The position numbers were made by a program, and so were the translations under genes. This document shows, piece after piece, positions 2,415-22,064 of a stretch of DNA of 64,000 nucleotides (position 1 is its first letter; every line of letters begins with the position of its first letter). A model generated the notes under the pieces. It saw only the letters and a list, made by a program, of their open reading frames with translations, had not been told where the DNA came from and ran no database searches. The DNA is from Acidisarcina sp. (GTDB lineage: Bacteria; Acidobacteriota; Terriglobia; Terriglobales; Acidobacteriaceae): positions 372,001-436,000 of the forward strand of contig DATLIY010000008.1 of NCBI GenBank assembly GCA_035539175.1, written 5' to 3'.

Positions 2415-2457
2415 GGCCTCTCCTGGCGCAGCAACGCGAAGACCGGCTGCCGCATGT

Positions 2458-3147: not shown

Positions 3148-3152
3148 AGGAG

Positions 3153-4079: not shown

Positions 4080-4134
4080 GGTTTATTTTAGAATGCCTGC
4101 CCCCAGCCCGCGCCGATCGCCGGACTCCGGGAAC

Positions 4135-4866
4135 TCACGCTCCAAGGACACGCAGGAAGAGGCCCACAATCGCGCCTCCAATCAGCGGACCGACGATGGG
4201 TACAAATGCGTAGCCCCAATCCGAGACACCCTTGCCGGGAATCGGAAGCACCGCATGTGCGAGACGAGGCCCCAGATCGCGAGCAGGATTGATCGCGTAG
4301 CCTGTCGTTGCCCCGAGCGAGAGACCGATGCCCCACACCACGCAGGAAACCAGGTACGGCGAGAGTCCTCCTGCGGCACCCGTCGAAAGCACCAGCCTGG
4401 AGCCCATTGCGCCAACCACGAGCACCAGAATCGCGGTGCCGATCACCTCGCTCACGACATTTGCCGGCAGGCAGCGAATCGCGGGCGCGGTGCAGAAGAT
4501 GCTCAGCTTCGCAGATGCGTCCGAAGTCTCCCGCCAGTGAGGATAAAAGTGAATCCACACCAGGCAGGCGCCGGCGAATGCTCCCGCAAGTTGTGCTGTT
4601 GCGTAGGGCAGCAGCACGCTGAAATTGTGGTTCTTCACCGCGAAGGCCAAAGTAATGGCCGGATTGAGATGCGCGTCGGGGCTGCCGCACACCACGGCCG
4701 TGAATATGCCAGCGAGGACCGCGAAGGCCCATCCCGTGACAATCACCATCCAACCTGCGTTCTCCGCCTTGGTACGCTTCAGCAGCACGCTGGCCACCAC
4801 ACCGTCTCCTAGCAGGATCATCACCATCGTACCCATGAACTCACCAAACATAGGAGAGCGAATCAA
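4135..4866 (-). CDS. glpF: Glycerol facilitator, aquaporin (MIP) family
   Basis: Inner-membrane channel for glycerol uptake. Both half-helix signatures of the MIP family are present in modified context: AHLNPAI in the first half and AINPARD in the second. Six hydrophobic segments can be seen in 243 aa, close to the usual length. The best start is a TTG at 4866 overlapping the glpD stop (TTGA) with a GGAGG Shine-Dalgarno 7 nt upstream (4874-4878); an ATG at 4851 has no such signal. The overlap implies translational coupling in a glpK-glpD-glpF transcript. Glycerol rather than water selectivity is inferred from the neighbours and from the aspartate in NPARD, common in glycerol channels. Confidence 0.9.
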   Translation of the reverse strand: MIRSPMFGEFMGTMVMILLGDGVVASVLLKRTKAENAGWMVIVTGWAFAVLAGIFTAVVCGSPDAHLNPAITLAFAVKNHNFSVLLPYATAQLAGAFAGACLVWIHFYPHWRETSDASAKLSIFCTAPAIRCLPANVVSEVIGTAILVLVVGAMGSRLVLSTGAAGGLSPYLVSCVVWGIGLSLGATTGYAINPARDLGPRLAHAVLPIPGKGVSDWGYAFVPIVGPLIGGAIVGLFLRVLGA

Positions 4867-6446: not shown

Positions 6447-6450
6447 CGCT

Positions 6451-7962
6451 CTATTCCCCGCCTCTTCTGTCGTGCTCCTTGAACCAGCCCTTGGAACGCT
6501 CCACCGCGTCGTGCCAGCGCTCCCTGGCCGCCTTCACTTTTGCATCGCTCATTGCAGGCTCGAACTTCGTATCCGGCCCGCGAAGAGAGCGAATGGCCTG
6601 GGGACTCTCCCAGAAGCCCTCCGCCAGTCCTGCGAGATAGGCTGCGCCCATCGCAGTTGTCTCAATCTGAGCGGGGCGTACGACAGGGATCCCCAGCACG
6701 TCTGCCTGAAATTGCAACAATAGATCATTCGCCGCAGCGCCGCCATCCACACGAAGCTCCTTAAGTGCCGTTCCAGTATCCGCTGCCATTGCCTCCAGCA
6801 CGTCTGCCACTTGAAACGCAATGCTCTCCATCGCCGCGCGAGCGATATGCCCCGGCTGCGTGCTGCGGCGCAAACCGATGATAAGCCCGCTGGCGTAGGG
6901 ATCCCAGTGGGGCGCTCCCAGGCCCACAAACGCTGGAACAAACACCACGCCGTCGGCGTCCGTCACCGACTGCGCGAGTGCTTGCACGTCCGACGAGGTG
7001 TGGATGAGCTTCAGATTATCGCGGAGCCATTGCACCACCGCACCGCCTATGAAGATGCTCCCTTCAAGCGCATACTCCAGTTGCGTGTTCATGCTGCAGG
7101 CGAGCGTCGTGATCAACTTCTGCTCGGATGAGACAAATTTCCTGCCGATGTTCTGCAGCAGGAAGCAGCCGGTGCCATAGGTATTCTTCGTGTCGCCCGG
7201 CATCACGCAGAGTTGGCCAAACAACGCAGCCTGCTGGTCTCCTGCGATCCCTGCAATGGGCACTGAGCCAAGACCCAGCGTGGTCGTAACGTCTCCCACC
7301 TTACCGCTTGAGGGCACCACCTCCGGCATCATGCACTCAGGAACATTGAAGAGCCGCAGCAGGTCCGCATCCCAGCACCCCTTCACGATGTTGAAGAGCA
7401 TGGTGCGCGATGCATTTGTGAAGTCGGTGATATGCCTGGTGCCGCTCGTCAGATTCCAGATGAGCCAGCTATCAACCGTACCGAACGCCAGTTTCCCTGC
7501 ATCGGCCCTTTGCCTTGCGCCAGAGACGTTGTCCAGAATCCATGCGATCTTGGTTGCCGAGAAGTAAGGGTCGATCCTGAGGCCCGTAGTTTGACGAACC
7601 ATATCCTCCGCGCCTGACTCCCTTAGCCGGTCGCACTCTGCTGCAGTGCGGCGATCCTGCCAGACGATGGCGTTGTAAATCGGCTTTCCGGTTTCGCGAT
7701 CCCAGATAAGGGTGGTCTCCCGCTGATTCGTGATACCCAGCGCCGTCAGATCGCGGGGGCGAACCCCTGCGGTGCCGAGTACCTCCACGGCGGAACTTAG
7801 CTGCGACGTGAGGATGTCGTAGGGCTTGTGCTCAACCCATCCAGAGTCGGGATAGATCTGCTCGAACTCATGCTGCGCCTGCGCGACGATCTTGCCATCG
7901 ACTCCAAAGAGAATGGCACGCGAACTCGTCGTCCCTTGATCCAATGCAAGTACGTAAGACAT
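6451..7962 (-). CDS. glpK: Glycerol kinase
   Basis: Cytosolic FGGY-family kinase that phosphorylates glycerol to sn-glycerol-3-phosphate with ATP. The N-terminus LALDQGTTSSRAI is the phosphate-1 loop. GITNQRETTLIWDRETG and the GLRIDPYFSATKI region match glycerol kinases specifically rather than xylulokinases. The length of 503 aa is standard. The ATG at 7962 follows a GAGGAG Shine-Dalgarno. It is the first gene of glpK-glpD-glpF. The 110-bp stretch upstream must hold the promoter, but no GlpR-type repressor gene is linked. Confidence 0.97.
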   Translation of the reverse strand: MSYVLALDQGTTSSRAILFGVDGKIVAQAQHEFEQIYPDSGWVEHKPYDILTSQLSSAVEVLGTAGVRPRDLTALGITNQRETTLIWDRETGKPIYNAIVWQDRRTAAECDRLRESGAEDMVRQTTGLRIDPYFSATKIAWILDNVSGARQRADAGKLAFGTVDSWLIWNLTSGTRHITDFTNASRTMLFNIVKGCWDADLLRLFNVPECMMPEVVPSSGKVGDVTTTLGLGSVPIAGIAGDQQAALFGQLCVMPGDTKNTYGTGCFLLQNIGRKFVSSEQKLITTLACSMNTQLEYALEGSIFIGGAVVQWLRDNLKLIHTSSDVQALAQSVTDADGVVFVPAFVGLGAPHWDPYASGLIIGLRRSTQPGHIARAAMESIAFQVADVLEAMAADTGTALKELRVDGGAAANDLLLQFQADVLGIPVVRPAQIETTAMGAAYLAGLAEGFWESPQAIRSLRGPDTKFEPAMSDAKVKAARERWHDAVERSKGWFKEHDRRGGE

Positions 7963-8073
7963 GGTTCTCCTCGCAAGATGGTCGATCGCACCAAAATTTT
8001 ATTCGATCTGCAAGATACAAACAGGACGCTGGAGCGGCTGTCAAACTCGCGCCGTTGAGTTGGCACACAGAAC

Positions 8074-8116
8074 GGCCACCAGTCTTGCGCACTTGTGATG
8101 CGGAAGACTGGCGGCC
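8074..8116 (-). terminator. Long hairpin downstream of the GH2 gene
   Basis: Arms at 8074-8091 and 8099-8116 pair over 18 positions with two mismatches around a 7-nt loop. It lies 10 nt past the GH2 stop codon and upstream of glpK, so it probably ends the GH2 transcript. There is no long T-run. Confidence 0.6.
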
Positions 8117-8126
8117 TGCTCAACGG

Positions 8127-10445
8127 CTATACCTTCTCTGGAGGCGCCGGCGAAATTTCGATGTGCACCTCCTGTTCGCCCAAAACAGGATGGCGGCCGA
8201 CAAGGCGCACCGTACCCGGCTCCTCCTTGGCCCGGATCCAGATCGCACCGGTTCCTCCGACAATGCTGAAGGGGTTGTCACCTATCAGTTCTGCTGGTCC
8301 TTCCAGTTGAAACACGATGGCGTCGTTCGCATACGGTCGAATCGCGCCGAACTCATCGGTCACTCGCATCACTACGCGAGTCGTATCTGCACCGTCCGCG
8401 ATGAGTTGCGTGTCATCCGGCAGCAGCGCGAACTTTTGATCGATCCCCTTGCTCGAGAAGCTCTTCGAGATCACCTGCTTGCCCTCGATATAGCCATCGA
8501 TGCGCAGTTCTCCCCACGTTCCCATCTTCGTGGCGTCGACGATGAAGGGTGGATAGCGCAGGTGCGAGTAGAGTGTCCGATCCGGGTCGGCCTCAATCAC
8601 GAGCTTTCCGTTGACGTAAAACTTGAGGTGGTCGCAGTTCGATGACACAACCGCCTTGCTGAAGCGAAGCGACTCATCGCCGGCTGCCCAGTTGAAGGCC
8701 GGCTCCAGAACTACTTCTTCCGATGGCTCGCATTGCGACTTATAGAACCCCGCCGCCGGTTTGGGTTCGCGGAAGATGTCGGTTACGCCGTGATAGCAGA
8801 TGCGGTCTCCCGAGCCGAAATCTGAATGTGTGTTGTAGTCGAAGGCGCACCAGCCGATGCCGCCCGCGTATTGCGGATCCGATGCCAGCTGGTCGTGCAC
8901 GCGTACATGGCGCAGCGTGTGTTCCGTCTTTCGTTCCACATCGTCGATACTTTTGGTTGGAAACGTGTGGCCGACAAACTCCGTGTTCAGGTAACGCGGG
9001 TGGTTCGGCTTCTTCAGCGGAAAGCCAAAATCGTTCATGGTGAACACATCTTCCAGAAACTCCGACTCCTGGAAGTAGCGAATGCCTCCCGTCTGGCGGC
9101 TGGGGTCCAACTCGTGCGCCACGGCATTGGTCCGGGTATAGAAGCTGTGATCATCCCGGGACTCGTTAATGCGCACTCCCCACAGGATGATGGAGGGATG
9201 GTTCCAATCGCGCCGTATCATGCGCCGCACATTGTCGATAGCGATCAGCTTCCATGGCTCATCTCCGATGTGCTGCCATCCGGGAATCTCTTCGAGCACA
9301 AGCAGGCCAATCCGGTCACACTCATCCAGAAAGTGGCGCGACTGCGGATAGTGAGAGGTCCGAACAATATTGCACTTCAAGTTCTTTCGCAGGATTTGCG
9401 CGTCGCGCTTCTGCACGCGGGCGGGCATCGCCTGCCCCACAAAGGGAAAGGTCTGGTGCCGGTCCAGCCCGCGCAGCTTGATGACCTTGCCGTTCAATTC
9501 AAATCCATGATCGGTAAAAGTTGCCTCGCGAAAGCCTATGGCGCGCGCATCTTCGTCCAGCACATGCGTCCCGCGCAGCAGCCGCACCTGCACTGTATAC
9601 ATGCGAGGATGCGAAAGATCCCAGAGTTCAATCGCGCCGAGCTTGTTGAGCTGCACGGTATGAGCGATCGGCTCATCTGCGGCAGCCGCAGGCGCAACTC
9701 GCTGTGTCGCTGTCGCCAGAACCTTCTCCCCATCCTTCAAGGAGACTTCGAGCGTAAGAGGCTGCTTTGCGGCTGCGGTATACTGCAGGTAGCAATTCAC
9801 ATCCACGGACGGATGATCGGAGAGCACATCCCGGGGACGCGCGAAGATGTTCTCCAGAAAGACGTCAGGCACGATGCGCAGCTGCACTTCGCGATAGATT
9901 CCGCCGAAAGTCAGATAGTCGATCTGATAGCCAAAGGGAGGGATATCTGCGCGCTCCGTGGAGTCGACATCGACGACCAGTACATTTTCTCCGTCAAAGT
10001 CTACGTGCGGGGTCAGGTCAAAGGAGAACGGCGTGAATCCTCCCTTATACTCACCCAGCCGAACCCCGTTTAACCAGACCGTGGAAGCGGTCATGACTCC
10101 TTCAAAATCGACAAAGACGCGGTGGCCTCGCGCCTCCAGCGGTAGCTTGAAGCGGCGGCGGTAAACCGACACAAACTCGTATAACCTGTCGTCAAAGCTG
10201 TGCCACGGCAGGCGAATATTGGTATGTGGAACCACGACGCGCTCAAATTTTGAGTCATCAAAATCCCTGGCGTGCGCCGCATCCGTCGCAGTGCGGCTGT
10301 ACCGCCAATTGCGATTCAGCGGCAGGATCAAGCGGCCTGCCGCCTGGGGCGCTGTCGCGGAAGACTCCGAGGCAAACGCGCCATTGGAAAGCGTGGCGCC
10401 AGCAATCAAAGTACCTGTAGTCTTGAGAAATTCGCGCCTATACAT
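8127..10445 (-). CDS. GH2 family beta-glycosidase (beta-galactosidase-like), Tat-exported
   Basis: Predicted exported glycoside hydrolase family 2 enzyme of 772 aa. The order is: signal region with a Tat-like motif (RREFLKTTG, residues 3-11), a jelly-roll sugar-binding domain (about 40-190), an Ig-like domain (about 205-310), the TIM barrel (about 315-600), then C-terminal Ig-like domains. The acid/base is probably E428 in WGVRINES and the nucleophile E499 in LNTEF. The ATG at 10445 is preceded by AGGAG. Members of this group act on beta-galactosides, but sequence reading alone cannot exclude glucuronidase or mannosidase activity. A hairpin follows the gene. Confidence 0.88.
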   Translation of the reverse strand: MYRREFLKTTGTLIAGATLSNGAFASESSATAPQAAGRLILPLNRNWRYSRTATDAAHARDFDDSKFERVVVPHTNIRLPWHSFDDRLYEFVSVYRRRFKLPLEARGHRVFVDFEGVMTASTVWLNGVRLGEYKGGFTPFSFDLTPHVDFDGENVLVVDVDSTERADIPPFGYQIDYLTFGGIYREVQLRIVPDVFLENIFARPRDVLSDHPSVDVNCYLQYTAAAKQPLTLEVSLKDGEKVLATATQRVAPAAAADEPIAHTVQLNKLGAIELWDLSHPRMYTVQVRLLRGTHVLDEDARAIGFREATFTDHGFELNGKVIKLRGLDRHQTFPFVGQAMPARVQKRDAQILRKNLKCNIVRTSHYPQSRHFLDECDRIGLLVLEEIPGWQHIGDEPWKLIAIDNVRRMIRRDWNHPSIILWGVRINESRDDHSFYTRTNAVAHELDPSRQTGGIRYFQESEFLEDVFTMNDFGFPLKKPNHPRYLNTEFVGHTFPTKSIDDVERKTEHTLRHVRVHDQLASDPQYAGGIGWCAFDYNTHSDFGSGDRICYHGVTDIFREPKPAAGFYKSQCEPSEEVVLEPAFNWAAGDESLRFSKAVVSSNCDHLKFYVNGKLVIEADPDRTLYSHLRYPPFIVDATKMGTWGELRIDGYIEGKQVISKSFSSKGIDQKFALLPDDTQLIADGADTTRVVMRVTDEFGAIRPYANDAIVFQLEGPAELIGDNPFSIVGGTGAIWIRAKEEPGTVRLVGRHPVLGEQEVHIEISPAPPEKV

Positions 10446-11166
10446 GAGTCTCCTGTTCTCTTTCAGCGGCCTGAGTTGGCTTCCAAGGCGAATCGCAGCA
10501 GCCTGCTCGCGCGAGCAGCGCAACCTGACAGTCTGCTAATTTGTCCGTGGTTATGCCTATGGTTATCTGTTGTAGTTGCGGCATGCTGCCGCGTCAAGGC
10601 AGGCGAAAACCCTGTGCAGTGGAGAAGCAGGTCCTTCGCTGCGCTCAGGATGACAAGCTGGACGCGGGAACCGAGGAGCACTTGTCATCCATAGATCCCA
10701 GCTCAGGTACTCGCACCCGTGGGTATCTGGCCAGCTTCCGGAGCGTACATCCAAAGTTGTTTTTTGTGTTGACAGCCTCTATGCGGAGATTTTAGGGTCC
10801 CATGATGCCGGATGATGCAGCCGGTTGCTCATTCATTTTTGCTCATGAAGCTTTTCGCCGCGGAAGCGATTCCTGTCTAAAGATCATCGCAGTGCGAGCC
10901 ACCTGATTTCAGTCTGAGACGCCTGCCCAAGGCGCGCAAGAAAACGATTGCTCGATAAGACGTAACGAAAAACGCGGTACAGATCCAATTGCACAAGTGG
11001 TACCAGGAAGAGCCCTAGCCGGCGATTCGCTAACGAGTCCCGGAACTTTGCAATGGGCCATTGGTGCCGGTGGTGGATGGAAAGAGTAGAAACAATGCTC
11101 GCCGTTCCCATCGTGGTATTTCCGCGGATAAGGTCCATCTAACGCAACACTTCGGGGAGGTCCGAA
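10446..11166. other. 720-bp gene-free region
   Basis: No coding sequence with support on either strand. It contains a copy of the dispersed CCTTCGC...GCTCAGGATGACAA repeat at 10627-10657 and an inverted partial copy at 10681-10690. A TTGACA hexamer at 10769-10774 could be a -35 box, but its -10 partner is poor. The right end carries a GGGGAGG Shine-Dalgarno for the gene at 11167. Confidence 0.7.
10627..10690 (+). repeat. Dispersed repeat copy 1, with inverted partial copy
   Basis: The core CCTTCGCTGCGCTCAGGATG, followed by ACAAG, matches copies near 38728 and, reversed, near 45376. Ten bases of it (GGATGACAAG) recur as the reverse complement at 10681-10690, so the pair could fold into a hairpin with a 23-nt loop. 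Confidence 0.85.
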
Positions 11167-14100
11167 ATGCGCAGTACACGTCACCTGCAAAATCATCATC
11201 CTCACAGGGTCCTGTTCTTTGTCGCCATGCTCGCAATGCTTGCGGTTGGCATCCATGGCCGCGCTTTTGCGCAGGCCGACCAGGGCGCGATCACCGGGGT
11301 TGTGACAGACACAACCGGGGCATCGATCCCTAACGCAACGGTCACCCTGCTGAACTCCGACACGAATCTCATCCTGGAGACACACACCAATGAAAGCGGC
11401 CTGTACATCTTCCAGCCGATCAAAGTCGGGAATTACTCGATCTCGGTAACGGCGCAGGGATTTTCCAAGACATCGCAGCAAAATGTGCACGTCGACATGC
11501 AGGCCCGCGTTTCTGTGAACGTTCAACTTAAGCCGGGAGCGGCGTCGGAGACGATCGAAGTAACGTCGGCCCCTCCGCTGCTGCAAACGGAAGAGGGTTC
11601 CACCGGGCAGGTGCTGGATACCAAGACCATTAACGACACGCCGCTCAACGGTCGTAACTGGGTTTTCGTCGCTCAGCTTACCGCCGGGATCACTCCACCC
11701 AGCGGTTCGCGTGGTGCGGGAAAAGGCGACTTCAACGCCAACGGTCAGCGGTCTGAGCAGAATAACTACATCCTCGACGGTGTCGACAACAACAACAACG
11801 TCGTCGACTTTCTGAACGGAGCAAGCTTCGTGGTGCGGCCTCCACCGGATGCCCTGTCGGAGTTCAAAGTGCAGACCGGTGCCTATAGCGCCGAGTTCGG
11901 CCACTCCGCAGGCGCGGTCGTCAACGCAGCCATCAAATCCGGCACCAACAACGTCCACGGAGATCTTTGGGAATATGTGCGCAACGATGCCTTCAACATT
12001 CATCAATGGAGCGATCCTGTAAACATCGTTCCGAAGTACCGGCAGAATCAATTTGGCGCAACCCTGGGCTTTCCCCTCTTCAAAGACAAACTTTTCTTCT
12101 TTGGAGATGTGGAGGCGAACCGCATCATCTTTGGCACCACACACGCCAAGCTGAGTGTTCCCACGGCCCTGATGCGTCAAGGAGATTTCAGCGAATTGTT
12201 GAATCCTGCGCTGGTCAACGGCTCCACCACCACACTTTACCGACCGGGCAGCGGCGGCACCGCCTTACAGCAGTGCAATGGAGTCCAGAACAAGCTGTGT
12301 CCCGATCAGATCAGTTCCGTCGCGCAGAACATACTGAACCTGTACCCAAAGCCAAACATCGGTATTCCCGGGCAAACCTACAATAACTACACCATATTGA
12401 CCAATGACCTGGATAACACGTGGCAATGGGATGCCCGTATGGATTGGAATATCAGCCCGAAAGATCAGATCTTTGGCCGGTACAGCTATCTGAATAATCC
12501 CGGCAACCGCCCTTCGCCGCTTGGTCCGATCCTCGACGGCGGCAACTTCAGCGATGATGGCGGCATCAAGAATCTGGGAGAAAACTTTGCCGGGTCCGAG
12601 ACGCACATCTTCAGCCAGAGTCTGACCAACGAATTTCGTTTTGGTTATAACTATGGCCACTTCGGATTCCTGCAGGAGAACGCAAACACGAATATCGCGG
12701 CCACCATTGGCCTCGGCGGAATTCCCTTTGCTCCGCTAAACGGCGGATTGCCGAATGTATCAATTGGAGGCTTATCGAACTTCGGATCGCCTACCTTCTA
12801 TGTATCCAACGAGTATGAGAATGTCTTTCAGATTCTCGACAACGTAACGAAGACGATCGGCAATCACCAGCTCAGAGCGGGCGTCAATTTCCAGCACATC
12901 CGTTTCTCTACCATGCAGCCGACGGCATCGCGTGGCACCTACAACTTCAACGGACTCTACACCTCCAAGCCGGGCACCGCGAACACCGGCTATGGCGCTG
13001 CGGATTTTCTGACGGACAACATGAATGGCGCAGGCCTTTCGAACCTGTTCAACACAGACGATGTACGGTGGGACCGTGCATTTTACGTGCAGGACGATTG
13101 GAAGCCGAGCCCCCGCCTGACGCTGAACATCGGGGTTCGGTATGAATTGTTCGACCCTTACTCCGAGCGCCATGGGCACCAGGCAGCGCTCCTGCCTACC
13201 GGGCCGATTGCAGCGGGCAAGGGATCGGGCATCTACCTGATCCCGACTAAGAGCAAGGGCGTGGCACTGGCTCCAAAGTTCCTCGATCTATTGGCAAAGG
13301 ACAACGTCACCATCCAGTACACCAGTAACAATTCGCTGGTGAACCGCCAGAACACCAACGTCGCTCCGCGTTTTGGTTTTGCTTACAAAGCGGGCGATAA
13401 GGCCGTGATTCGCGGCGGATATGGAATCTTCTTCGGCGGAGTAGAAAGCACCGGCTACTATCCCAACCTGGGAGAGAACTATCCGTTTGAGTTCGACTCA
13501 AACTTTCCCGTGGTGGGATCTCCATCCAATCCAAACGGCGACTGCCTGCCAAACAATTGCCCGACCAACGGATTATCCCTGGCAACGGGCTTCTCCCATG
13601 CGATCGCAGTCGGACTTGAAAATGCAATTTCAACACCAACCCTGCGCGGCAGTGACAAGAACGTGAAGACGCCCTATAGCGAGCAGTACAACTTGTCGAC
13701 CGAATATGCGCTGTCCAACAGCCTGGTCGCCCAGGTTGCGTATGTCGGTTCCGTATCTCGTCACCTGCAGGTATTCCCTGATCCAAACTCGCCGGTTGCG
13801 ATTGCGGCTCCGGGAACAAATGTAAATCCGCTCCGTCCATTCCCGGATTTCGGCGGACTCTCCTATACGTCGTACACGGGTGATAGCAGCTATAACGCAT
13901 TTCAGGCAAAGCTCGAAAAACGTTATACGGAAGGGTTGAGCTATCTGGCTACCTACACCTGGTCTCACTCTCTGGATGACGCGCCAACTCCGTTGGGCAG
14001 CACTGGAGACCTTGGATACCAGGGAACGAATGTGGTGCCCATTGGCCTGAACTATGCCTCGTCTCCCTTTGACGTGCGTCATCGGTTCACTCTCAACGGC

Positions 14101-14706
14101 AGCTACGCGTTACCCTTCGGACGTGGGCAGAAGTATCTTTCCAACAGCACAATGGCTGATGTTGTTGTAGGTGGCTGGTCTTTGAGCATGGTGTTCCGTG
14201 CGCAATCCGGCGAACCGTTCACGGTAGGCACCAGCAACACCAGTACTCCTGCTGGAGCCGGCGCACGCGCACTGCGAATTGCGGATCCATTCAAGGCCGG
14301 CGGAACTCCCAACAATCCGAACACCACTTGCCCCACCAAGGTGAGGACAACGCAAAACTGGTATAACCCCTGCTCCTTTGCAAATCCGCTCGATGCAAAT
14401 GGCATCGGCAGCGCTCTGTTGACGGGCTCGGCCGCATACCGGTATCTGGGAATCGGTAGAAATCAGGTGGCCGGCCCTGGGTATCAGCGTATCGATATGT
14501 CCCTCTTCAAATCCTTCAAGACCTTCCGCGAACAAACCTTACAGTTCCGCACGGATGTCTTTAACCTCTTGAATACGCCAGCCTATGCCCAACCTAGTAA
14601 CAGCGGGACCGGTACGGATGGCGGCCAGATCACCAATGTGCGCTTCTTCCAGAGCTTCACTCCGGATTCGCGCTTCTTCCAATTCGCTTTGAAGTACAAC
14701 TTCTAA
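11167..14706 (+). CDS. TonB-dependent receptor-type outer-membrane protein with Cna-B-like N-domain
   Basis: An 1179-aa outer-membrane beta-barrel protein of the kind greatly expanded in Acidobacteria (carboxypeptidase-regulatory-like domain plus TonB-dependent receptor). A signal peptide ends at AFA-QADQG. Residues about 40-115 (GAITGVVTDTTGASIPNATV onward) form the carboxypeptidase-regulatory-like domain. A plug domain follows (NNYILDGVDNNNN, then QTGAYSAEFGHSAGAVVNA), then a long barrel ending in FALKYNF with the terminal aromatic residue used for outer-membrane assembly. The ATG at 11167 has a GGGGAGG Shine-Dalgarno. The ligand is unknown; a plant or microbial polysaccharide product is a usual guess. 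The next genes run in the same direction, though a hairpin intervenes. Confidence 0.9.
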   Translation: MRSTRHLQNHHPHRVLFFVAMLAMLAVGIHGRAFAQADQGAITGVVTDTTGASIPNATVTLLNSDTNLILETHTNESGLYIFQPIKVGNYSISVTAQGFSKTSQQNVHVDMQARVSVNVQLKPGAASETIEVTSAPPLLQTEEGSTGQVLDTKTINDTPLNGRNWVFVAQLTAGITPPSGSRGAGKGDFNANGQRSEQNNYILDGVDNNNNVVDFLNGASFVVRPPPDALSEFKVQTGAYSAEFGHSAGAVVNAAIKSGTNNVHGDLWEYVRNDAFNIHQWSDPVNIVPKYRQNQFGATLGFPLFKDKLFFFGDVEANRIIFGTTHAKLSVPTALMRQGDFSELLNPALVNGSTTTLYRPGSGGTALQQCNGVQNKLCPDQISSVAQNILNLYPKPNIGIPGQTYNNYTILTNDLDNTWQWDARMDWNISPKDQIFGRYSYLNNPGNRPSPLGPILDGGNFSDDGGIKNLGENFAGSETHIFSQSLTNEFRFGYNYGHFGFLQENANTNIAATIGLGGIPFAPLNGGLPNVSIGGLSNFGSPTFYVSNEYENVFQILDNVTKTIGNHQLRAGVNFQHIRFSTMQPTASRGTYNFNGLYTSKPGTANTGYGAADFLTDNMNGAGLSNLFNTDDVRWDRAFYVQDDWKPSPRLTLNIGVRYELFDPYSERHGHQAALLPTGPIAAGKGSGIYLIPTKSKGVALAPKFLDLLAKDNVTIQYTSNNSLVNRQNTNVAPRFGFAYKAGDKAVIRGGYGIFFGGVESTGYYPNLGENYPFEFDSNFPVVGSPSNPNGDCLPNNCPTNGLSLATGFSHAIAVGLENAISTPTLRGSDKNVKTPYSEQYNLSTEYALSNSLVAQVAYVGSVSRHLQVFPDPNSPVAIAAPGTNVNPLRPFPDFGGLSYTSYTGDSSYNAFQAKLEKRYTEGLSYLATYTWSHSLDDAPTPLGSTGDLGYQGTNVVPIGLNYASSPFDVRHRFTLNGSYALPFGRGQKYLSNSTMADVVVGGWSLSMVFRAQSGEPFTVGTSNTSTPAGAGARALRIADPFKAGGTPNNPNTTCPTKVRTTQNWYNPCSFANPLDANGIGSALLTGSAAYRYLGIGRNQVAGPGYQRIDMSLFKSFKTFREQTLQFRTDVFNLLNTPAYAQPSNSGTGTDGGQITNVRFFQSFTPDSRFFQFALKYNF

Positions 14707-14720
14707 GCGGTTACACTCAG

Positions 14721-14754
14721 CGGCAGACGGAGGTGGAAACATCTCCGTTTGCCG
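14721..14754 (+). terminator. Hairpin between the 1179-aa receptor and the TPR gene
   Basis: Arms 14721-14732 and 14743-14754 pair over 12 bp with one G-T wobble around a 10-nt loop, 14 nt after the receptor stop codon. No T-run follows, so it may attenuate or stabilise a transcript rather than end it. It overlaps one candidate start of the next gene. Confidence 0.5.
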
Positions 14755-14769
14755 GAGGTTTCTCCCACC

Positions 14770-16248
14770 GTGTCCCTAGTTCAGAGGACTTTCGTTCACA
14801 GGACTCTCGTCCACAGGACAGCTCGCACGACCATCCTCCGTGGCCTTCCTGCAGCAGTGCTGCTATCTCTCCACCTCCTGATTCCGTGCGCCTCTCCGGG
14901 GCAAGCGACTCAGCGTACGCATACCAGCTCATCAAAGGCGCGGAGTCTAAGCGCCAGCGACCAGGTTGCGTTCGCGGCCGCACTCAAAGCGCAGGATAGC
15001 GGAGATCGCCGTGAGGCCGAATCCACTCTCAGAGATCTCGCACGGCGGAATCCGAATAGTTTTGAGGTTGCCGAAACGCTCGGCCTTCTCTACGCCGAAT
15101 CAGGAGAATTCACACCTGCAATTCCCTTTCTTGAAAAGGCCTGCTCGCTGAACAGTTCTTCTGCAATCGCGCTTGCAAATCTTGGCGCGGCCTACCTCAA
15201 GGTCAATCGTGAGAAGGATGCGGTGCCAGTGCTCACTCGCTCCGTTGCGCTTGACCCTGGCAATGCGCAAACTCTGTCTTCGCTGGGTACGGCGCTCTTG
15301 CAAACGGGCCGCTCGCAACAAGCCGCAGCCGCATTCGCCAAGGCTGCGTCGCGGAACCCGTCGGATCCGGACCTGCTCTATAACTGGGCTCTGGCACTCT
15401 TCAACTCCGGCCAGACGACAACGGCAAATGAAGTCCTGTCTCGCGTATCGGATAAGGATTCCTCATCGCAGGCACAGTCGCTTCTCGGCGATATCGAGGA
15501 GAGGCAGGGACATTACGAACAGGCCGTTGCACACCTGCAGGCTGCCGCAAAACTCGATCCCAGCGAGGCAAACATGTATGCCCTGGGAATCGAGTTTCTG
15601 CGCCACTGGACCTTTGATCCGGCGATCAGGATTTTTCAGTTTGGACTGGAACGCTATCCCTCAAGCACACGCTTATTGCTGGGTTTGGGAGTAGCTCGCT
15701 ACTCAATGAACGATGTTGGGCTTGCCGCTCCCATCTTTTCCAGGCTCCTGGTATCCGATCCTGACAACGCACTGTACGCTGAGTTGCTAGGGCATAGTTG
15801 CAGCCTGATGCCCGAGACAAGCAAGGGCTGCGACAAGCTGGAGAGCTTCGCCGAACGGCATCCGAAGAATGCGATGGTTGCCACCTATGCCGCTGCGAAC
15901 ATCCTGCATCGGCCCAGCACTCCAGAAAATGCAAGTGCGGCACGCAAACTGCTGGAGACAGCTATCGCAGACGATCCGCACTCGCCGGAAGCCTACTATC
16001 AGATGGGCTTGCTGGAACAATATCAATCCCGCTGGCCCGAAAGCATCGTGCCCCTGGAAAAGGCCATTGCGCTGAAACCCGCATTCTCCAAGGCGCACTA
16101 TCGCCTTGCTCTTGCCTACTCCCACGCGGGAGAACGAGAGAAGGCTCACCAGGAGATCGCTCTCCAGAAGCAATACAGTCAGCAGGAAAAGGATGACTTG
16201 AACGCAAAGTTCAAAGAAGTCACCACGTTCCTGGTGACCATGCATTGA
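14770..16248 (+). CDS. Secreted TPR-repeat protein
   Basis: About 492 aa of tandem tetratricopeptide repeats behind a hydrophobic N-terminal segment (AAVLLSLHLLIPCAS) that looks like a signal peptide or anchor. Repeats such as AETLGLLYAESGEFTPAIPF, then ANLGAAYLKVNREKDAVPVL, continue almost to the C-terminus, so the protein is a periplasmic or surface scaffold. I place the start at a GTG at 14770 with GGAGG at 14754-14758 (spacing 11); a TTG at 14749 falls inside the upstream hairpin. Its stop is followed 8 nt later by the next start, suggesting co-translation with the alkaline-phosphatase-like protein. No enzymatic motif is visible. Confidence 0.75.
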   Translation: MSLVQRTFVHRTLVHRTARTTILRGLPAAVLLSLHLLIPCASPGQATQRTHTSSSKARSLSASDQVAFAAALKAQDSGDRREAESTLRDLARRNPNSFEVAETLGLLYAESGEFTPAIPFLEKACSLNSSSAIALANLGAAYLKVNREKDAVPVLTRSVALDPGNAQTLSSLGTALLQTGRSQQAAAAFAKAASRNPSDPDLLYNWALALFNSGQTTTANEVLSRVSDKDSSSQAQSLLGDIEERQGHYEQAVAHLQAAAKLDPSEANMYALGIEFLRHWTFDPAIRIFQFGLERYPSSTRLLLGLGVARYSMNDVGLAAPIFSRLLVSDPDNALYAELLGHSCSLMPETSKGCDKLESFAERHPKNAMVATYAAANILHRPSTPENASAARKLLETAIADDPHSPEAYYQMGLLEQYQSRWPESIVPLEKAIALKPAFSKAHYRLALAYSHAGEREKAHQEIALQKQYSQQEKDDLNAKFKEVTTFLVTMH

Positions 16249-16256
16249 GCAGAGAT

Positions 16257-17420
16257 ATGCACTCAAAGATCCACAGGACCGCAGCCAATGTTGCCCGCCA
16301 AGTCGCGTGCAGCCGAAGAGAATTTCTCCGCGGCGCCGTTGGCATTGCGGCAGGAAGCGCTATCACGAGCTTTGCCCCCATGCATGCAGCCATTGCTCGC
16401 AAGCATCCGAAGGCCGTGGTTGTTACCTTTGGCGGAGGAGCGCGCGACGAGGAGACCTTTGCGCCCGAGGGCCAGGAGAATATTCCCAATCTTGTGCAAA
16501 CTCTCTTTCCTCAATCGACGTTCTATGCGCAGATGGTGAACCACGGCATCCTGGGGCACTATGTTGCAACTGCCAGCCTCGCTACCGGCGTGTATGAGAC
16601 CTTCAATAACTTTGCCGCCGTAGCTCCGCATAACCCAACCGTCTTTGAATACTTCCGCAAGGATCTAGGCCGTCGTGCCACGGATGCATGGGTTGTAGCT
16701 CCAAGCAATGGATTCAACCGTATCGGCGAGAGTGACAATCGGCGATATGGAGCGGGCCTCGGAGCGGGCGTCATCCTCCCGAAGCATCTTCTGGCCTCTG
16801 CGATGTCGTCCAAAAAATCAGGCGATTACGAGCATCTGCTGCGGGATAACTATGAAGCACCCTTTAACACACCGGCCCTGGCTGGGAACGAAGTGGAGAT
16901 GGAAAGGCTCCAGAATCTGCTAAAGCTCTCGGTAACGGATTTCTCCGCTCATGCTCGAAGCCTTGCAAGCCCCGATGAACTCTCGGTGTACATTGCCCGG
17001 CGCTTGATGCGCGAACTCGCACCAAGCCTTCTCTGGATCACGTTGCACGATATTGATATTGCGCACTCCGGCGCATATTCGCTCTACATCGATGGCATCC
17101 GCAGATCGGATCGGCTTTGCGCGGAGATTTGGAAGACCATCGAATCAGAGCCAGAGTATGCAGGCAAGACCACGATGTTCATCCTGCCGGACTTCGGTCG
17201 CGACGCCGATACCGACCCAGGCGGAAATGGATTTCAGCATCATCGCACCGGCGATCCCCTCTCCCGCACAACATGGATGATGGTTCTGGGACCGGGTATC
17301 CGGCAGGGTGTTGTTCTTGACAGGCCCGTCGAATCCATCGATCTGGTGCCTACGCTGGGAGCGATCTTCGGATTCTCCCCGCGACTGGCGCAAGGCAAGC
17401 CGCTGGTGGAGGTCTGCTGA
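16257..17420 (+). CDS. Tat-exported alkaline-phosphatase-superfamily protein with atypical metal site
   Basis: A 387-aa exported protein. The N-terminus has a Tat motif (CSRREFLRGAVGIAAGSA). The body looks like the alkaline phosphatase/sulfatase fold: NIPNL after the first strand, GHYVATASLATGVY where family members show the serine/threonine-rich fit, HDIDIAHSG as a metal-ligand segment, PDFGRDADTDPGG where SDHGE is usual, and C-terminal IDLVPTLGAIFGF. The first strand reads VVVTFGGGARDEETF and lacks the usual metal-binding aspartate, and the usual His of SDHG is Phe, so it may be a pseudoenzyme or a divergent branch. I prefer the ATG at 16257 over a TTG at 16245 that overlaps the TPR stop. 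The neighbours are in the same transcript direction. Fold call moderate, activity unknown. Confidence 0.65.
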   Translation: MHSKIHRTAANVARQVACSRREFLRGAVGIAAGSAITSFAPMHAAIARKHPKAVVVTFGGGARDEETFAPEGQENIPNLVQTLFPQSTFYAQMVNHGILGHYVATASLATGVYETFNNFAAVAPHNPTVFEYFRKDLGRRATDAWVVAPSNGFNRIGESDNRRYGAGLGAGVILPKHLLASAMSSKKSGDYEHLLRDNYEAPFNTPALAGNEVEMERLQNLLKLSVTDFSAHARSLASPDELSVYIARRLMRELAPSLLWITLHDIDIAHSGAYSLYIDGIRRSDRLCAEIWKTIESEPEYAGKTTMFILPDFGRDADTDPGGNGFQHHRTGDPLSRTTWMMVLGPGIRQGVVLDRPVESIDLVPTLGAIFGFSPRLAQGKPLVEVC

Positions 17421-17422
17421 AG

Positions 17423-18640
17423 ATGCTGCCTGCCAACCTCAATCCGGAGAGCTTTAAGAGCTATCCTCCCCAGGCCCGCCAGTTGGCCGTGAGCCAGGTT
17501 GAGTTGTTGCGACAGCTACCTGCCGTCCTCGTACCGGTTCTGTTGCACGAAGTTATCGCCTACGACTGGAAGTTTCCCCGCGAGCGCAAAGAGCTGGAGG
17601 ACCAGTTCCAATATCTTCGGTCGCTGCCAAAAGAGAAACGCGATCGGCTCCTCGCCGGATTTTCGGCAGTCACCTTGCCGGAGGAAACTGCGAAGCTTGA
17701 CTGGGTCAATGCTCCCGGCGAATTCCTTGAGCACCTGACTGCATCATTGTGGGCGACTCATCAGATGGACCGCTTCCGCGCAGCCGCCGACGAGTATGCC
17801 GGCGCATGGCACGCCGCCATCCCGGAGGAATCTCCGTCCATCCCGCGGCTGGGAATCGTCGTGATCGGCTCCGGCGTCGATGCAACGGACTATCCTCTGT
17901 TCCGCAAGCTGCGGCCGAGCGGGGTACACTTCACGCAGGTCAGCGCGGAGCGCGGCCTTCAGACGCTCCTAAGCGCGATAACTGCGCGCGCCGCAGCTCA
18001 TCCGGAACCCTACGCCCACTGGTATATCGATGGCGGAGAAAGTTCGCTGCACTCCAACGCGGATGTCACCTGCGTCTCTTACAGCGGCCTGGAACCGGCG
18101 CGGAACGCGCTTCTGACGCGTATGCAGCGAACCATCGAGTCCGGCTCCGGCGGACCGGAAGCTCTGCGCACCATGCTTGCGCAGATGAAGCCGCAAGACC
18201 TTGGCCTGCCGTCGGAGGGCCCCGCAGCACTTCTCAGCCGCTTCCAAATCAGCCTGCTGACGGAAGGGTCCGGCACGCAGATCTTCAGCACAACCTTTGC
18301 GCAGTGGGCCGCGCGGGAGGTGATGCGGCGGGCTCAACCCATATCGCTGCTGGTGCGCTTTTCTCCCCGGCAACGTCAGAGGCCCATGAACGAGTTGCTC
18401 TCCAGCGCGTCTCATCCGGGAGAACTGGACCCCGCCGGATCGCTGCTGGATGCCGATATGGGCGCCTACTACACATGGCTGAATCAGCAACGGCTTTCCG
18501 GCGCGAAGGAATCCGGCTTCCTCGTCTGGTTTGAAGGGCACAATCAGGCTTTAGCTATCGGGCCAACCTTACCGCGCGGAACCACCTCTTCCTCGCCCAC
18601 CGACCTGAAGCAGATTCTTGTCTGGCTGGGTGAGACGTAG
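17423..18640 (+). CDS. Protein of unknown function (405 aa)
   Basis: I do not recognise this protein. It starts 2 nt after the preceding stop at an ATG with a GGAGG 10 nt upstream, so it is translationally linked to the Tat-exported AlkP-like protein. There is no signal peptide and no membrane segment, so it is likely cytosolic. The N-terminal third is helical and charged (WKFPRERKELEDQFQYLRS). A central strand-turn segment, LGIVVIGSGVDATDYPLFRK, suggests an alpha/beta fold. The C-terminus (GFLVWFEGHNQALAIGP) is hydrophobic and strand-like. No catalytic motif stands out. Base composition is like its neighbours. Partnership with the TPR and AlkP-like proteins is inferred from gene order only. 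Confidence 0.75.
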   Translation: MLPANLNPESFKSYPPQARQLAVSQVELLRQLPAVLVPVLLHEVIAYDWKFPRERKELEDQFQYLRSLPKEKRDRLLAGFSAVTLPEETAKLDWVNAPGEFLEHLTASLWATHQMDRFRAAADEYAGAWHAAIPEESPSIPRLGIVVIGSGVDATDYPLFRKLRPSGVHFTQVSAERGLQTLLSAITARAAAHPEPYAHWYIDGGESSLHSNADVTCVSYSGLEPARNALLTRMQRTIESGSGGPEALRTMLAQMKPQDLGLPSEGPAALLSRFQISLLTEGSGTQIFSTTFAQWAAREVMRRAQPISLLVRFSPRQRQRPMNELLSSASHPGELDPAGSLLDADMGAYYTWLNQQRLSGAKESGFLVWFEGHNQALAIGPTLPRGTTSSSPTDLKQILVWLGET

Positions 18641-18738
18641 ACCCTCAGCTACGCATGCCAAAGTTCGATTTGGAGTGGAATCAGGCGGTTGCAACCGGCG
18701 GGCAATGCCTATCCTTGACTGGCCGTTCTATGTGTTAG

Positions 18739-19158
18739 ATGACTTCGCAACACCTGCTTTATAATCGCGGTCTGAGACGACTGATTTCCATCTCGATCCT
18801 GCTGTTTCTTATTGCTCCGATGATGCTTCCCCTGTTTGCTTCGGGAGCAGACTCCACAGGCGAGATCCCGGCTTGCTGCCGCAAAAATGGCAAGCACCAT
18901 TGCATGATGAAGATGCTGCAAAACTCGCAGGCATCCGCCGCCGCAGGAACAAACGTCTCAGCAATGGACACAAAGTGCCCTTATTGGCCAGGGTCTCTGC
19001 CCTGCATCAGCCATGTACCTGCCGCACTCGATGTCGCAGCCGCTATCGATGCACAGGTAGTTTCCCATCCTGCATCCTCCCCGCAAACGCAGGCGAAGCG
19101 TCGCATCTCCTTCAGCCGCTCTCGCCAGAAGCGTGGCCCTCCCACAGACCTCCTCTAA
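18739..19158 (+). CDS. Small exported Cys/His/Met-rich protein, possible metal binder
   Basis: A 139-aa protein with a signal peptide or single anchor (LISISILLFLIAPMMLPLFA) followed by a short region dense in metal-type ligands: ACCRKNGKHHCMMKM, then CPYWPGSLPCISH. The C-terminal tail is basic (KRRISFSRSRQKR). No known enzyme domain is visible. It is the first gene before a TonB-dependent receptor, a position where small Cys/His-rich exported proteins are found next to copper-linked receptors in other bacteria; a role in copper or another soft metal is therefore plausible but unproven. The ATG at 18739 has no strong Shine-Dalgarno, so the start is uncertain. Confidence 0.6.
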   Translation: MTSQHLLYNRGLRRLISISILLFLIAPMMLPLFASGADSTGEIPACCRKNGKHHCMMKMLQNSQASAAAGTNVSAMDTKCPYWPGSLPCISHVPAALDVAAAIDAQVVSHPASSPQTQAKRRISFSRSRQKRGPPTDLL

Positions 19159-19266
19159 CCACTCGAACCTCTGCCAGCACACCACAATTCGCTCGGGCGA
19201 TCATGCGCCTGGCGAGGAATCGTGGGCAGAAGGAAATAGATCGGCACGGAACGACGAGGAGACCGG

Positions 19267-21510
19267 ATGCGAACACTTGCTCGATTTTGCCTGCTTGCGG
19301 CGCTTCTGCACGGCACACTTGCCTACGCGAATATCTTTGGCAAGCTGAATGGAATTGTGCACGACCCGCAACACAGGCCCATCAAGGGCGCCCAGATTAC
19401 GCTGCACGCGGAGGACTCTGCCTTCGCCCTGAGCACCGTCACCGACGAGGAAGGCTCCTTCTCGATCGCCGCGGTGCCTCTCGGCAAGTACACCATTACA
19501 ATTGCACAGGCGGGATTCCAAACCATTCGACAAGCTGTTAGGGTCGCCTCCGGAACCGCACCCTATTTGCACTTTGCGCTACAACTCGAAAGCGTGCAGC
19601 AGTCCGTCTCCGTCACTTCGACACAGGAGACAGTGAACATTGATTCCGCGACGACCACCACTCTGGTAGGTCGCGCCGACATCGCCCAAACGCCGGGCGC
19701 GGATCGAACCAACAGTCTGGCTATGATCACCGACTATGTTCCCGGTGCCTACATGACTCACGACATGCTCCACATGCGTGGCGGCCACCAGATCAGTTGG
19801 CAGATTGACGGCGTACAGATTCCCAATACCAATATCGCGAGTAATCTGGGAGCGCAGATTGACCCCAAGGACATTGACTATCTTGAAGTCCAGCGGGGAA
19901 GCTATAACGCCGACATCGGCGATCGAACCTTTGGCGTGATGAACGTCGTGCCGAGAACCGGCTTTGAACGGAACCGGCAAGCCGAACTCGTAGTGAGCGC
20001 GGGAAACTACTGGCAGACCAACGATCAACTGAACTTCGGCAGCCACTCGGAGAAGTTTGCCTACTACGCAAGCTTAACCGGCAACAGAAGCAACTATGGG
20101 TTAGCGCCGCCGATCGATCGCACCTATCACGATGCCGCCAATGGCTACGGCGGCTTTGTATCGTTGCTGTATAACCGCACTCCCCGCGATCAATTCCGGC
20201 TAGTAGCACAGCTTCGCCAGGACTTCTTTCAGATTCCTTACAATCCTGCGGACACGAATCGATTACGGGACGTGCAGCATGAAAAAGATGGGCTGGTCAC
20301 TCTCTCCTGGCTGCATACGTTCAGCGCATCGACGCTGCTTCAGGTGTCCCCTTTCTACCATTACAACCAGGCCGACTACGAGCCGAGTTCCAGCGACTTT
20401 CCGATTGCAACAACCTCAGATCGTGCGTCCAACTATGCTGGCATTCAGGCCTCTGTTAGCAGCCAGATCAAGAGGAACACCTTTCAAGCTGGCTTCTATG
20501 CATTCGGACAACATGACAACGACAAATATGGCTCCGTGTTTTATGACCAAAGCTTTCCAAGCTTTGCCCTCCGGAACTCAGTGTCTGGTGGAGTGATTGA
20601 AGAGTATCTTTCCGACAACTTCAAAGTGACACCGTGGCTGACACTCATCGGCGGTCTTCGCCAATCGACTTTCTCAGGAGATTTTACCGAGAGCGTGACA
20701 AGCCCGCGTGTCGGTGCGGCGCTTCAGATCCCCAGGCTTAACTGGGTATTTCGCGGTTTCTATGGCAGGTTCTATCAGCCGCCTCCTTTGCTCACTACCT
20801 CCGGCCCACTCATCCAATACGCCAATAGTCAGAACACTTCCTTTGTGCCCATTCATGGCGAGCACGATGAAGAGCATCAGTTCGGCGTGCAGATTCCGCT
20901 CTACGGTTGGCTGCTGGACGCTGACCACTTTCAGACGCGGATCAACAAGTTTCTCGACCACTCAAATGTTGGGGCATCGAGCATCTACTTCCCCGTGACG
21001 ATCGATGGTGCACTCGTCCAGGGATGGGAGCTATCTCTTCGATCCCCCCGGCTATGGCGGCTGGGGCAGGCACATCTTGCCTACTCCAACCAGATTGCCA
21101 AGCAGCGTGGCCCGATCACTGGAGGACTGATCTGCTACCCCGTCACGTCGCCGCAATGCGATGTCGAGCCTGGCTATACCCCGGTGGATCACGACCAGCG
21201 CAACACCCTGGATGTGGGCTTCCATGCCGCGCTGCCATGGAATGGATTTGGTTCGATCAATGTCAATTATGGATCGGGATTCCTCAACGGAGACCCGAAT
21301 GAGCAATACCCGGGAAACTATCTACCACAGCACACTTCGGTGGACCTCTCCATCGGCAAGAACTTTGGAGAGCGCGCCACCGTCTCCGTAACCGGAATTA
21401 ATCTTTCGAATCACCGTGTTCTGCTGGATAACAGCTTTACCTTCGGCGGATTTCACTACAACGATCCGCGGCAGATCTATGCAGAGGTTCGGTACCGCTT
21501 CCACTATTGA
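19267..21510 (+). CDS. TonB-dependent receptor with N-terminal carboxypeptidase-regulatory-like domain
   Basis: A 747-aa outer-membrane receptor. The signal peptide ends near ALLHGTLAYA. Residues about 22-110 form a Cna-B/CarboxypepD_reg-like domain (KLNGIVHDPQHRPIKGAQIT). The plug follows (MTHDMLHMRGGHQISWQIDG, then VQRGSYNADIGDRTFGVMNV), and the beta-barrel ends in YAEVRYRFHY with a terminal tyrosine. The ATG at 19267 has GAGGAG 5 nt upstream. It is shorter than the other two receptors here, nearer the size of metal or cofactor receptors. With the Cys/His/Met-rich protein before it and a VKOR after it, metal uptake is a reasonable inference, but no ligand motif proves it. Confidence 0.88.
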   Translation: MRTLARFCLLAALLHGTLAYANIFGKLNGIVHDPQHRPIKGAQITLHAEDSAFALSTVTDEEGSFSIAAVPLGKYTITIAQAGFQTIRQAVRVASGTAPYLHFALQLESVQQSVSVTSTQETVNIDSATTTTLVGRADIAQTPGADRTNSLAMITDYVPGAYMTHDMLHMRGGHQISWQIDGVQIPNTNIASNLGAQIDPKDIDYLEVQRGSYNADIGDRTFGVMNVVPRTGFERNRQAELVVSAGNYWQTNDQLNFGSHSEKFAYYASLTGNRSNYGLAPPIDRTYHDAANGYGGFVSLLYNRTPRDQFRLVAQLRQDFFQIPYNPADTNRLRDVQHEKDGLVTLSWLHTFSASTLLQVSPFYHYNQADYEPSSSDFPIATTSDRASNYAGIQASVSSQIKRNTFQAGFYAFGQHDNDKYGSVFYDQSFPSFALRNSVSGGVIEEYLSDNFKVTPWLTLIGGLRQSTFSGDFTESVTSPRVGAALQIPRLNWVFRGFYGRFYQPPPLLTTSGPLIQYANSQNTSFVPIHGEHDEEHQFGVQIPLYGWLLDADHFQTRINKFLDHSNVGASSIYFPVTIDGALVQGWELSLRSPRLWRLGQAHLAYSNQIAKQRGPITGGLICYPVTSPQCDVEPGYTPVDHDQRNTLDVGFHAALPWNGFGSINVNYGSGFLNGDPNEQYPGNYLPQHTSVDLSIGKNFGERATVSVTGINLSNHRVLLDNSFTFGGFHYNDPRQIYAEVRYRFHY

Positions 21511-21662
21511 TTCGACAGAATGGCCTGGCGCCACGGAGAATGGATTGAGGAGCAGCACGCCCGGCTATACCACTTCTACATGGAAGAAATTAACCGCTGG
21601 TCGGGATGAATACCCTCAGACCCTGCCGGTAATAAGTTTTGGAAATTCAGGAGAGAGCTACT

Positions 21663-22064
21663 TTGCGCTACGGAATTGCAATCCTGGCCATTGCGGGAAT
21701 CATCGTTTCGTTTCTCGCATTCCGCGTTCACTATTCCAATGAGACGCAACCCTGCAGCATCAATGAGCATTGGGATTGTGGCGTGGTGAATCACAGTTCC
21801 TATGCTGAGATAGCAAAGGTCCCCGTCGCCGGAATCGGCATGGTCGGCTATGCAGCGCTGGCCCTGTTTTCGCTTCTCGGGCGCAGGCGCTGGACCTTCC
21901 TGCTATCCTTGCCGGGACTCGGCTTCGCGTTGTACCTGACATACATTGAACGAAATATCCTGCAGGTGTGGTGCCTCTATTGCGTGATTTCGCAAGGCAT
22001 CATCGCTGCCATCACACTGCTCTCACTCCTTGACTGGCTCAGGCATCGGCGAGCGGCAGACTAG
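21663..22064 (+). CDS. Vitamin K epoxide reductase (VKOR) family protein
   Basis: Inner-membrane protein of 133 aa that reoxidises a periplasmic thiol oxidase and hands electrons to quinone, the bacterial replacement for DsbB. Four hydrophobic segments are visible. The active CXXC is WCLYC (C104 and C107), and the periplasmic loop pair is C31 and C39, with the conserved serine/asparagine region VVNHSSY after it. There is no fused thioredoxin domain, so it needs a separate partner; a DsbA/DsbG-like protein is encoded at 52415. The start is a TTG at 21663 with AGGAG 9 nt upstream; a TTG at 21639 precedes the Shine-Dalgarno and is less likely. Confidence 0.9.
   Translation: MRYGIAILAIAGIIVSFLAFRVHYSNETQPCSINEHWDCGVVNHSSYAEIAKVPVAGIGMVGYAALALFSLLGRRRWTFLLSLPGLGFALYLTYIERNILQVWCLYCVISQGIIAAITLLSLLDWLRHRRAAD

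Follow-up and report, generated by a model that had tools for sequence, protein, structure and literature searches.

In a 64,000-nucleotide stretch of the genome of Acidisarcina sp. (Acidobacteriota; assembly GCA_035539175.1, contig DATLIY010000008.1, positions 372,001 to 436,000 of the forward strand; herein referred to as the window), two adjacent genes encode an alkaline phosphatase (AlkP)-like protein of 387 amino acids (aa) with a putative signal for twin-arginine translocation (Tat) and a 405-aa protein of hidden ancestry. On profile alignments and predicted structures, residues 136–405 of the latter are a diverged, degenerate AlkP-fold paralogue of its AlkP-like neighbor, and the two genes persist side by side across relatives. 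Found in soil Acidobacteriota, the pair gives a hint of a sugar-handling module of two parts that has yet to be described. We hypothesize that the Tat-exported AlkP-like protein and its signal-less paralogue form a heteromeric, co-exported, glycan-handling module, a reading that we favor tentatively and rate at somewhat under an even chance; its complex, co-export, location and substrate are what we infer.

An earlier sequence-only reading of this region had placed the 405-aa protein in no family. At the level of family models that description stands (no NCBIfam match and no Pfam match below E 0.008 across 27 members), and a sequence search of the PDB returned nothing convincing; it does not stand at the level of fold. 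The AlphaFold model, built from the 70 rows of alignment A4 (69 of 74 listed 405-aa references plus the window sequence; predicted local distance difference test [pLDDT] 94, predicted template modelling score [pTM] 0.91), consists of a helical N-domain followed by the 136–405 domain, and all 50 of the structural matches listed for the latter in this predicted structure belong to the AlkP superfamily (Z 11.8–13.3), with the N-domain lying outside these matches. Foldseek alone was weak for this model (best E 6e-4, template modelling [TM] score ~0.3). Comparison of the wide profiles A1 and A2 with hhalign, however, joins the AlkP-like and 405-aa families over the whole domain at 92% (E 6.5e-7, score 58.4, against a best of 23.4 in 60 column shuffles), and in the reverse direction at 62% (E 7.4e-5, score 44.1, against 25.9 in as many shuffles); the best E reached by any shuffle, with both directions counted, was 0.023. 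A profile of four canonical AlkP proteins reached the 405-aa family at only 16% (E 0.0015, 120 columns). In the profile alignment the 405-aa protein is gapped at the nucleophile helix and the metal-ligand motifs are absent; many residues of its AlkP-fold domain are nearly invariant across the family. An identity as DUF1800 was considered and rejected (hhalign gave 0.4% when the longest open stretches from 20 DUF1800 loci were compared, and there was no DUF1800 match in 27 members).

The AlkP-like protein belongs to no Pfam family in the window scan, its Tat-type matches are sub-threshold (Tat model E 0.058, Pfam/NCBIfam scan), and its best matches in a sequence search of the PDB are sulfatases at E 0.002 or worse. 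Its AlphaFold model (65-row alignment A3, comprising 64 of the 79 AlkP references listed, including a canonical copy from locus L105, plus the window sequence; pLDDT 81, pTM 0.87) is predicted to adopt the AlkP-superfamily alpha/beta fold, nearest to PafA (Z 28.3, root-mean-square deviation 2.9 over 293 residues), and 50 of 50 structure entries among the matches listed are AlkP-superfamily members, with Z up to 28.3. In 83 of the 85 distinct relatives a Tat-like RR/KR-x-hydrophobic motif lies within the N-terminal 60 residues; in the other two (L110, L115) it lies just 5' of the chosen start. It is thus present in all 85, in agreement with the Tat export that had been proposed for this protein.

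The active site departs from the canonical one throughout the family. We compared the AlkP-like sequences (88 rows less the canonical L105 copy, giving 87 rows and 85 distinct sequences, with residues counted from the alternative TTG start at 16245 in the open reading frame list) with four canonical acidobacterial relatives, whose site residues are D-G-L-R, S-Y, D-H-G-R and His. In 85/85 the first-strand metal Asp is replaced by Gly64, the Ser/Thr nucleophile place is taken by His105, and the His of DHG is replaced by Phe317 (Leu in 2), preceded by D/E316; the Asp of the D-x-x-x-H motif has shifted, Asp269 and Asp/Glu271 flanking its place, while the metal-type His274 and His333 are retained. 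By sequence alignment, none of the 85 accordingly has the residues that mark a canonical enzyme, namely the Asp of the first strand, a Ser/Thr/Cys nucleophile and an Asp-His pair. The missing first-strand Asp and the Phe in place of His had both been read correctly from the window protein; the His at the nucleophile place had gone unmentioned. That the canonical ligands are lost agrees with the repurposed, pseudoenzyme-like site that had been suspected. The site does not look decayed, however: G64, H105, D269, H274, R319, D320, N328 and H333 are without variation in 85/85, and this constancy of the substituted residues suggests a site that has been rebuilt.

The same altered site occurs in DUF1501 (PF07394). 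The DUF1501 pattern comprises Gly/Ala near the first-strand Asp place (judged by eye), a His ten residues before the nucleophile-helix Gly, [ED]FGR for DHG and a late His, and by this pattern all 14 DUF1501 proteins read from related genomes match the 85/85 AlkP-like sequences (2/85 with Leu for Phe), a count that is partly built in, since the fallback reading rule required [ED][FWYL]GR (25 loci were tried, of which 10 were unreadable, L001 was dropped because its reading was out of frame, and 14 were kept). The site of the AlkP-like protein is therefore, as far as aligned residues tell, similar to that of DUF1501, and its pattern is not unique. At the profile level the likeness was clearest at the C-terminus: a DUF1501 profile matched the AlkP-like family over its last 94 columns at 94–96% (47–89% with another sequence set), splitting DUF1501 by type gave 42% and 1.7% (the latter for the GTDHG type), and the N-terminal part gave 0.2%. 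The window protein had no match to the Pfam DUF1501 model, which recognised 2/27 relatives weakly (best E 0.016), and it thus falls short of the gathering score. Because the profile match is C-terminal only and the Pfam model was missed, we call the site DUF1501-like and do not file the protein as a member. In one genome, a canonical Ser-nucleophile AlkP-superfamily relative lies directly 3' of the pair (L105, 12454–13602), placing rebuilt and intact-looking relatives in one cassette.

The genes of the cassette, and a neighboring gene that recurs near it, are as follows (window coordinates):
11167..14706, + strand: Oar-type TonB-dependent outer-membrane receptor, 1179 aa, with CarboxypepD_reg, Plug and OMP_b-brl_4 (Pfam scan); frequent partner
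14749..16248, + strand: tetratricopeptide repeat (TPR) protein with a hydrophobic, signal-like N-terminal stretch and an uncertain start codon; frequent partner
16257..17420, + strand, ATG start: AlkP-like protein, 387 aa, with a putative Tat signal and an apparently rebuilt active site (AlphaFold model, fold match, ligand tables)
17423..18640, + strand: 405-aa protein, with a helical N-domain (~1–135), a putative degenerate AlkP-fold domain (136–405) and no recognisable export signal
8127..10523, − strand: GH2 glycoside hydrolase with a Tat-like N-terminus, divergent from the receptor here; in several relatives it follows the 405-aa gene

The open reading frames reproduce the four-gene arrangement first described, with 8 nucleotides (nt) between the TPR and AlkP-like genes and 2 nt between the AlkP-like and 405-aa genes. 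The Pfam scan likewise bears out the receptor as TonB-dependent in type (OMP_b-brl_4, E 5e-231, plus CarboxypepD_reg and Plug), and at least 25 families are among the matches listed for the TPR protein, most of them TPR models.

After contigs were deduplicated, 94 orthologous loci remained, and the counts that follow use those with enough flank. The expectation that the genes stay together in relatives was borne out, near-obligately for the pair: the AlkP-like and 405-aa genes adjoin in 88/90 loci, and in 87/90 the 405-aa gene is next, on the same strand and within 700 nt. The order is reversed at L099 (L065/L099, G070), where the 405-aa gene lies 5' of the AlkP-like gene across a 264-nt gap. 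Diverged paralogous AlkP-like genes also keep the association, all eight having an adjoining 405-aa relative. The other two genes are only frequent partners, the TPR gene lying 5' of the pair in 44/79 loci and a same-strand receptor in 44/66, and the complete four-gene order occurs in 37/66. As the pair persists while receptor and TPR gene are optional, we take the AlkP-like and 405-aa genes to be the unit. The sequence-only reading had also put forward two checks, on gene neighborhood in relatives and on the presence of a canonical metal site: the pair stays adjacent and the site is non-canonical, as judged by sequence alignment and not by geometry, and neither result overturns the proposal.

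Co-occurrence across whole genomes is similarly tight. AlkP-like matches at E 1e-5 or better were found in 45 of 150 relatives' genomes, 33 of them strong (E below 1e-60), and all 33 of the strongly positive genomes also hold the 405-aa gene. The latter was matched in 35/150, the two extras being G054 and a weak match in G042; that in G054 (C31:105505-106569) is a partial 405-aa gene, matching from residue 47 on, in a genome with no AlkP-like match. A phylum sample of 297 genomes (thresholds 1e-20 and 1e-5; some genomes are shared with the set of 150) contained 21 genomes with both genes, two with the AlkP-like gene only (G163, and G212, where it is partial) and one with only a 405-aa remnant (G334:C33:84287-84919, a partial gene with no AlkP-like match). 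Both genes of the pair are fragmented together at G297:C4:383843-385731. Across 84,980 species genomes scanned, relatives are encoded in 275, and among the 80 of these matches that were listed, 79 are acidobacterial by name and one is a bog genome named Nevskia soli. Plasmid records yielded three partial matches, two annotated as sulfatase-like and one unannotated.

Glycoside hydrolases lie beside some of the loci. In a Pfam scan, the first gene 3' of the cassette encoded GH42 in 9/83 loci, GH2 in 8/83 and GH35 in 6/83 (the GH42 and GH35 counts overlap, as both were seen in one protein), against GH2 in 2/96, GH42 in at most 2/96 and an MGH1-like hydrolase domain in 2/96 control genes from related genomes. 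GH2 or GH42 thus directly follows the pair in no more than 17/83. These counts cover 83 of 86 first-downstream genes (three over 3300 nt were left out) and 96 of 120 control open reading frames cut by hand; the control families listed are the first 25 of 141, hence the upper bound given for GH42; neighbor picking was rough, and the loci scanned include a few diverged paralogous ones. A regional test placed glycoside hydrolases near 26/44 loci versus 3/20 control regions (p 0.001), with queries drawn partly from the same loci; given this overlap and the outcome in a second locus set described below, we rely on the scan of first-downstream genes. Some loci further have GH36, GH97, GH3, LacI or FG-GAP/ASPIC proteins in their vicinity. 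A large fusion of FG-GAP/ASPIC-UnbV, AhpC-TSA and TPR domains stands 5' of the receptor, mostly divergent, at L119 (182–3991) and similar loci, its cluster being present in 21/81. Galactose-containing glycans are, on the beta-galactosidase-type neighbors of part of the loci, a weakly supported guess at the substrate.

In the window, which lies in a 3.9-Mb genome (G000), a minus-strand run at 33–10523, divergent from the receptor, encodes the GH2 protein, glycerol kinase, a GlpD-type FAD oxidoreductase, an unknown 308-aa protein and GH92. A glycerol metabolism theme, suggested by the glycerol kinase (6451–7962) and GlpD (4863–6446) beside the GH2 gene, was rejected, as it recurs in only 1/80 other loci. 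On the 3' side, 18739–22064 encodes a protein with a sub-threshold DUF2946 match, a smaller second TonB-dependent-type receptor and a VKOR-family protein.

How might such a pair work? We envisage the two proteins as paralogous subunits of one heteromer built on the AlkP fold, which would be the simplest account because the adjacent paralogues stay together even without the receptor and the TPR protein. The AlkP-like subunit would contribute the Tat signal and the rebuilt, DUF1501-like site, and the 405-aa subunit would lack the nucleophile segment and a recognisable export signal. Assembly would take place in the cytoplasm and most likely be followed by joint export through Tat (hitchhiking). 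Tat hitchhiker export, in which signal-less partners are carried along, is a known process (PMC10924467). With a putative Tat signal on the AlkP-like protein, none recognisable on the 405-aa protein, and a Tat pathway capable of carrying signal-less partners, co-export is favored. Once exported, the pair would act either at the outer membrane or in the periplasm, in many cases alongside the TPR protein and the TonB-dependent receptor, and its role would be glycan handling, perhaps of galactose-containing glycans. A more ambitious formulation, which we regard as quite improbable as a whole, is that an acidobacterial AlkP-fold heterodimer, co-exported by Tat and composed of a half-metal-site subunit with His at the nucleophile place and a signal-less scaffold, is a glycan-processing or glycan-binding partner of the TonB-dependent receptor, and that together with DUF1501 it defines a large rebuilt AlkP branch whose chemistry or binding role is new.

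Several observations count against the heteromeric, co-exported module. At L102 and L156 the AlkP-like gene stands without a 405-aa partner. Of the other proposed partners, the TPR gene was not found 5' of the pair in 35/79 loci, nor the receptor in 22/66. Paralogy emerges only from the wider profiles A1/A2; the shallower alignments A3/A4 show none (hhalign 2%). In the second locus set the enrichment of glycoside hydrolases was not significant (10/29 versus 3/20 control, p 0.19). The N-terminus of the 405-aa protein is also less plain than the term signal-less implies: a motif scan recorded a Tat-like motif in 1/90 rows, but a hydrophobic 15-mer, starting at residues 21–35, lies in the first 60 residues of 36/90, and RRx[FVLIM] occurs in 26/90, always at residue 55, where it sits behind the hydrophobic stretch, the opposite of the order that a Tat signal requires. 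The 405-aa protein could remain cytoplasmic.

The main competing explanation starts from that last point, holding that the AlkP-like Tat substrate is served in the cytoplasm by the 405-aa protein, as a dedicated chaperone or proof-reading factor whose AlkP-fold domain mimics a dimer partner, whose helical N-domain holds the signal peptide, and which stays behind on export. In its favor, no Tat signal is recognised in 89/90 rows, pairing with the Tat substrate is near-obligate and the protein has an extra helical N-domain; however, known Tat chaperones of the TorD/DmsD type are small helical proteins rather than folded copies of their substrates, and the many nearly invariant residues of the AlkP-fold domain speak against such a role. 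We consider this explanation unlikely, if worth serious attention. Somewhat less probable in our view is that the AlkP-like protein is itself an active, DUF1501-type enzyme, acting alone through one metal and the His in the nucleophile place on glycan sulfate or phosphate groups and regulated by the 405-aa protein. The invariance of H105, D269, H274, D320, N328 and H333 in 85/85, the same substitutions by pattern in the 14/14 DUF1501 proteins read and the closeness of the predicted fold to PafA and sulfatases are all in its favor. Against it, profile similarity to DUF1501 is limited to the C-terminal part and is lacking for the GTDHG type (1.7%), and no AlkP-superfamily enzyme with a His nucleophile is known to us. 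Finally, the four genes may simply make up a conserved operon, of an ordinary kind, in a TonB-dependent nutrient locus, with both AlkP-fold proteins acting as structural or binding pseudoenzymes outside any joint complex. Loss of the canonical ligands in the AlkP-like protein and the glycoside hydrolases adjoining some loci are compatible with this account, but it leaves unexplained why the pair persists without receptor and TPR protein, and we think it the most doubtful of the readings considered.

Pfam labels the large family of DUF1501-type AlkP proteins 'of unknown function', and the pair provides a small, tightly linked context (often with receptor and TPR protein, sometimes with beta-galactosidase families), together with a paralogous partner, for testing what a rebuilt site does. 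If the heteromeric module or its chaperone alternative were true, an AlkP-fold protein that lacks a signal and partners a Tat substrate would add a new type to the Tat hitchhikers or the Tat chaperones. The pair could also point to a sugar receptor system of Acidobacteriota without SusD.

The four-gene set was not found described in the open-access literature searched, and the known systems it resembles each share only part of it. YejM/PbgA has the AlkP fold in common with the 405-aa protein (YejM entries are among its fold matches) and acts with a TPR protein, LapB. YejM differs in being an inner-membrane protein tied to the control of lipopolysaccharide synthesis, and it is not known to be associated with a paralogous pair or a receptor. 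SusC/SusD-type polysaccharide loci are alike in their TonB-dependent receptor (present here in 44/66 loci) and in the glycoside hydrolases and LacI found near some loci; the receptor here, however, is of the OMP_b-brl_4 type, and no SusD family was found among the window genes scanned (4866–22061; relatives' genes were not scanned for SusD one by one). PafA/SPAP-type alkaline phosphatases and the NPP/sulfatase clan share the fold of the AlkP-like protein; in the latter, other residues stand at the nucleophile position and at the Asp and His places of metal site 2 in 85/85. DUF1501 is usually paired with DUF1800 (PF08811). One study reports that the two form an operon in which DUF1501 carries a Tat motif (PMC5122149). 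The window genome holds a separate DUF1800-DUF1501 pair of this kind (G000:C7:1256862-1260077), possibly an analogue of the AlkP-like/405-aa pair. DUF1501 thus likewise lives in a two-gene pair; its partner is DUF1800, whereas the partner here appears to be an AlkP-fold paralogue.

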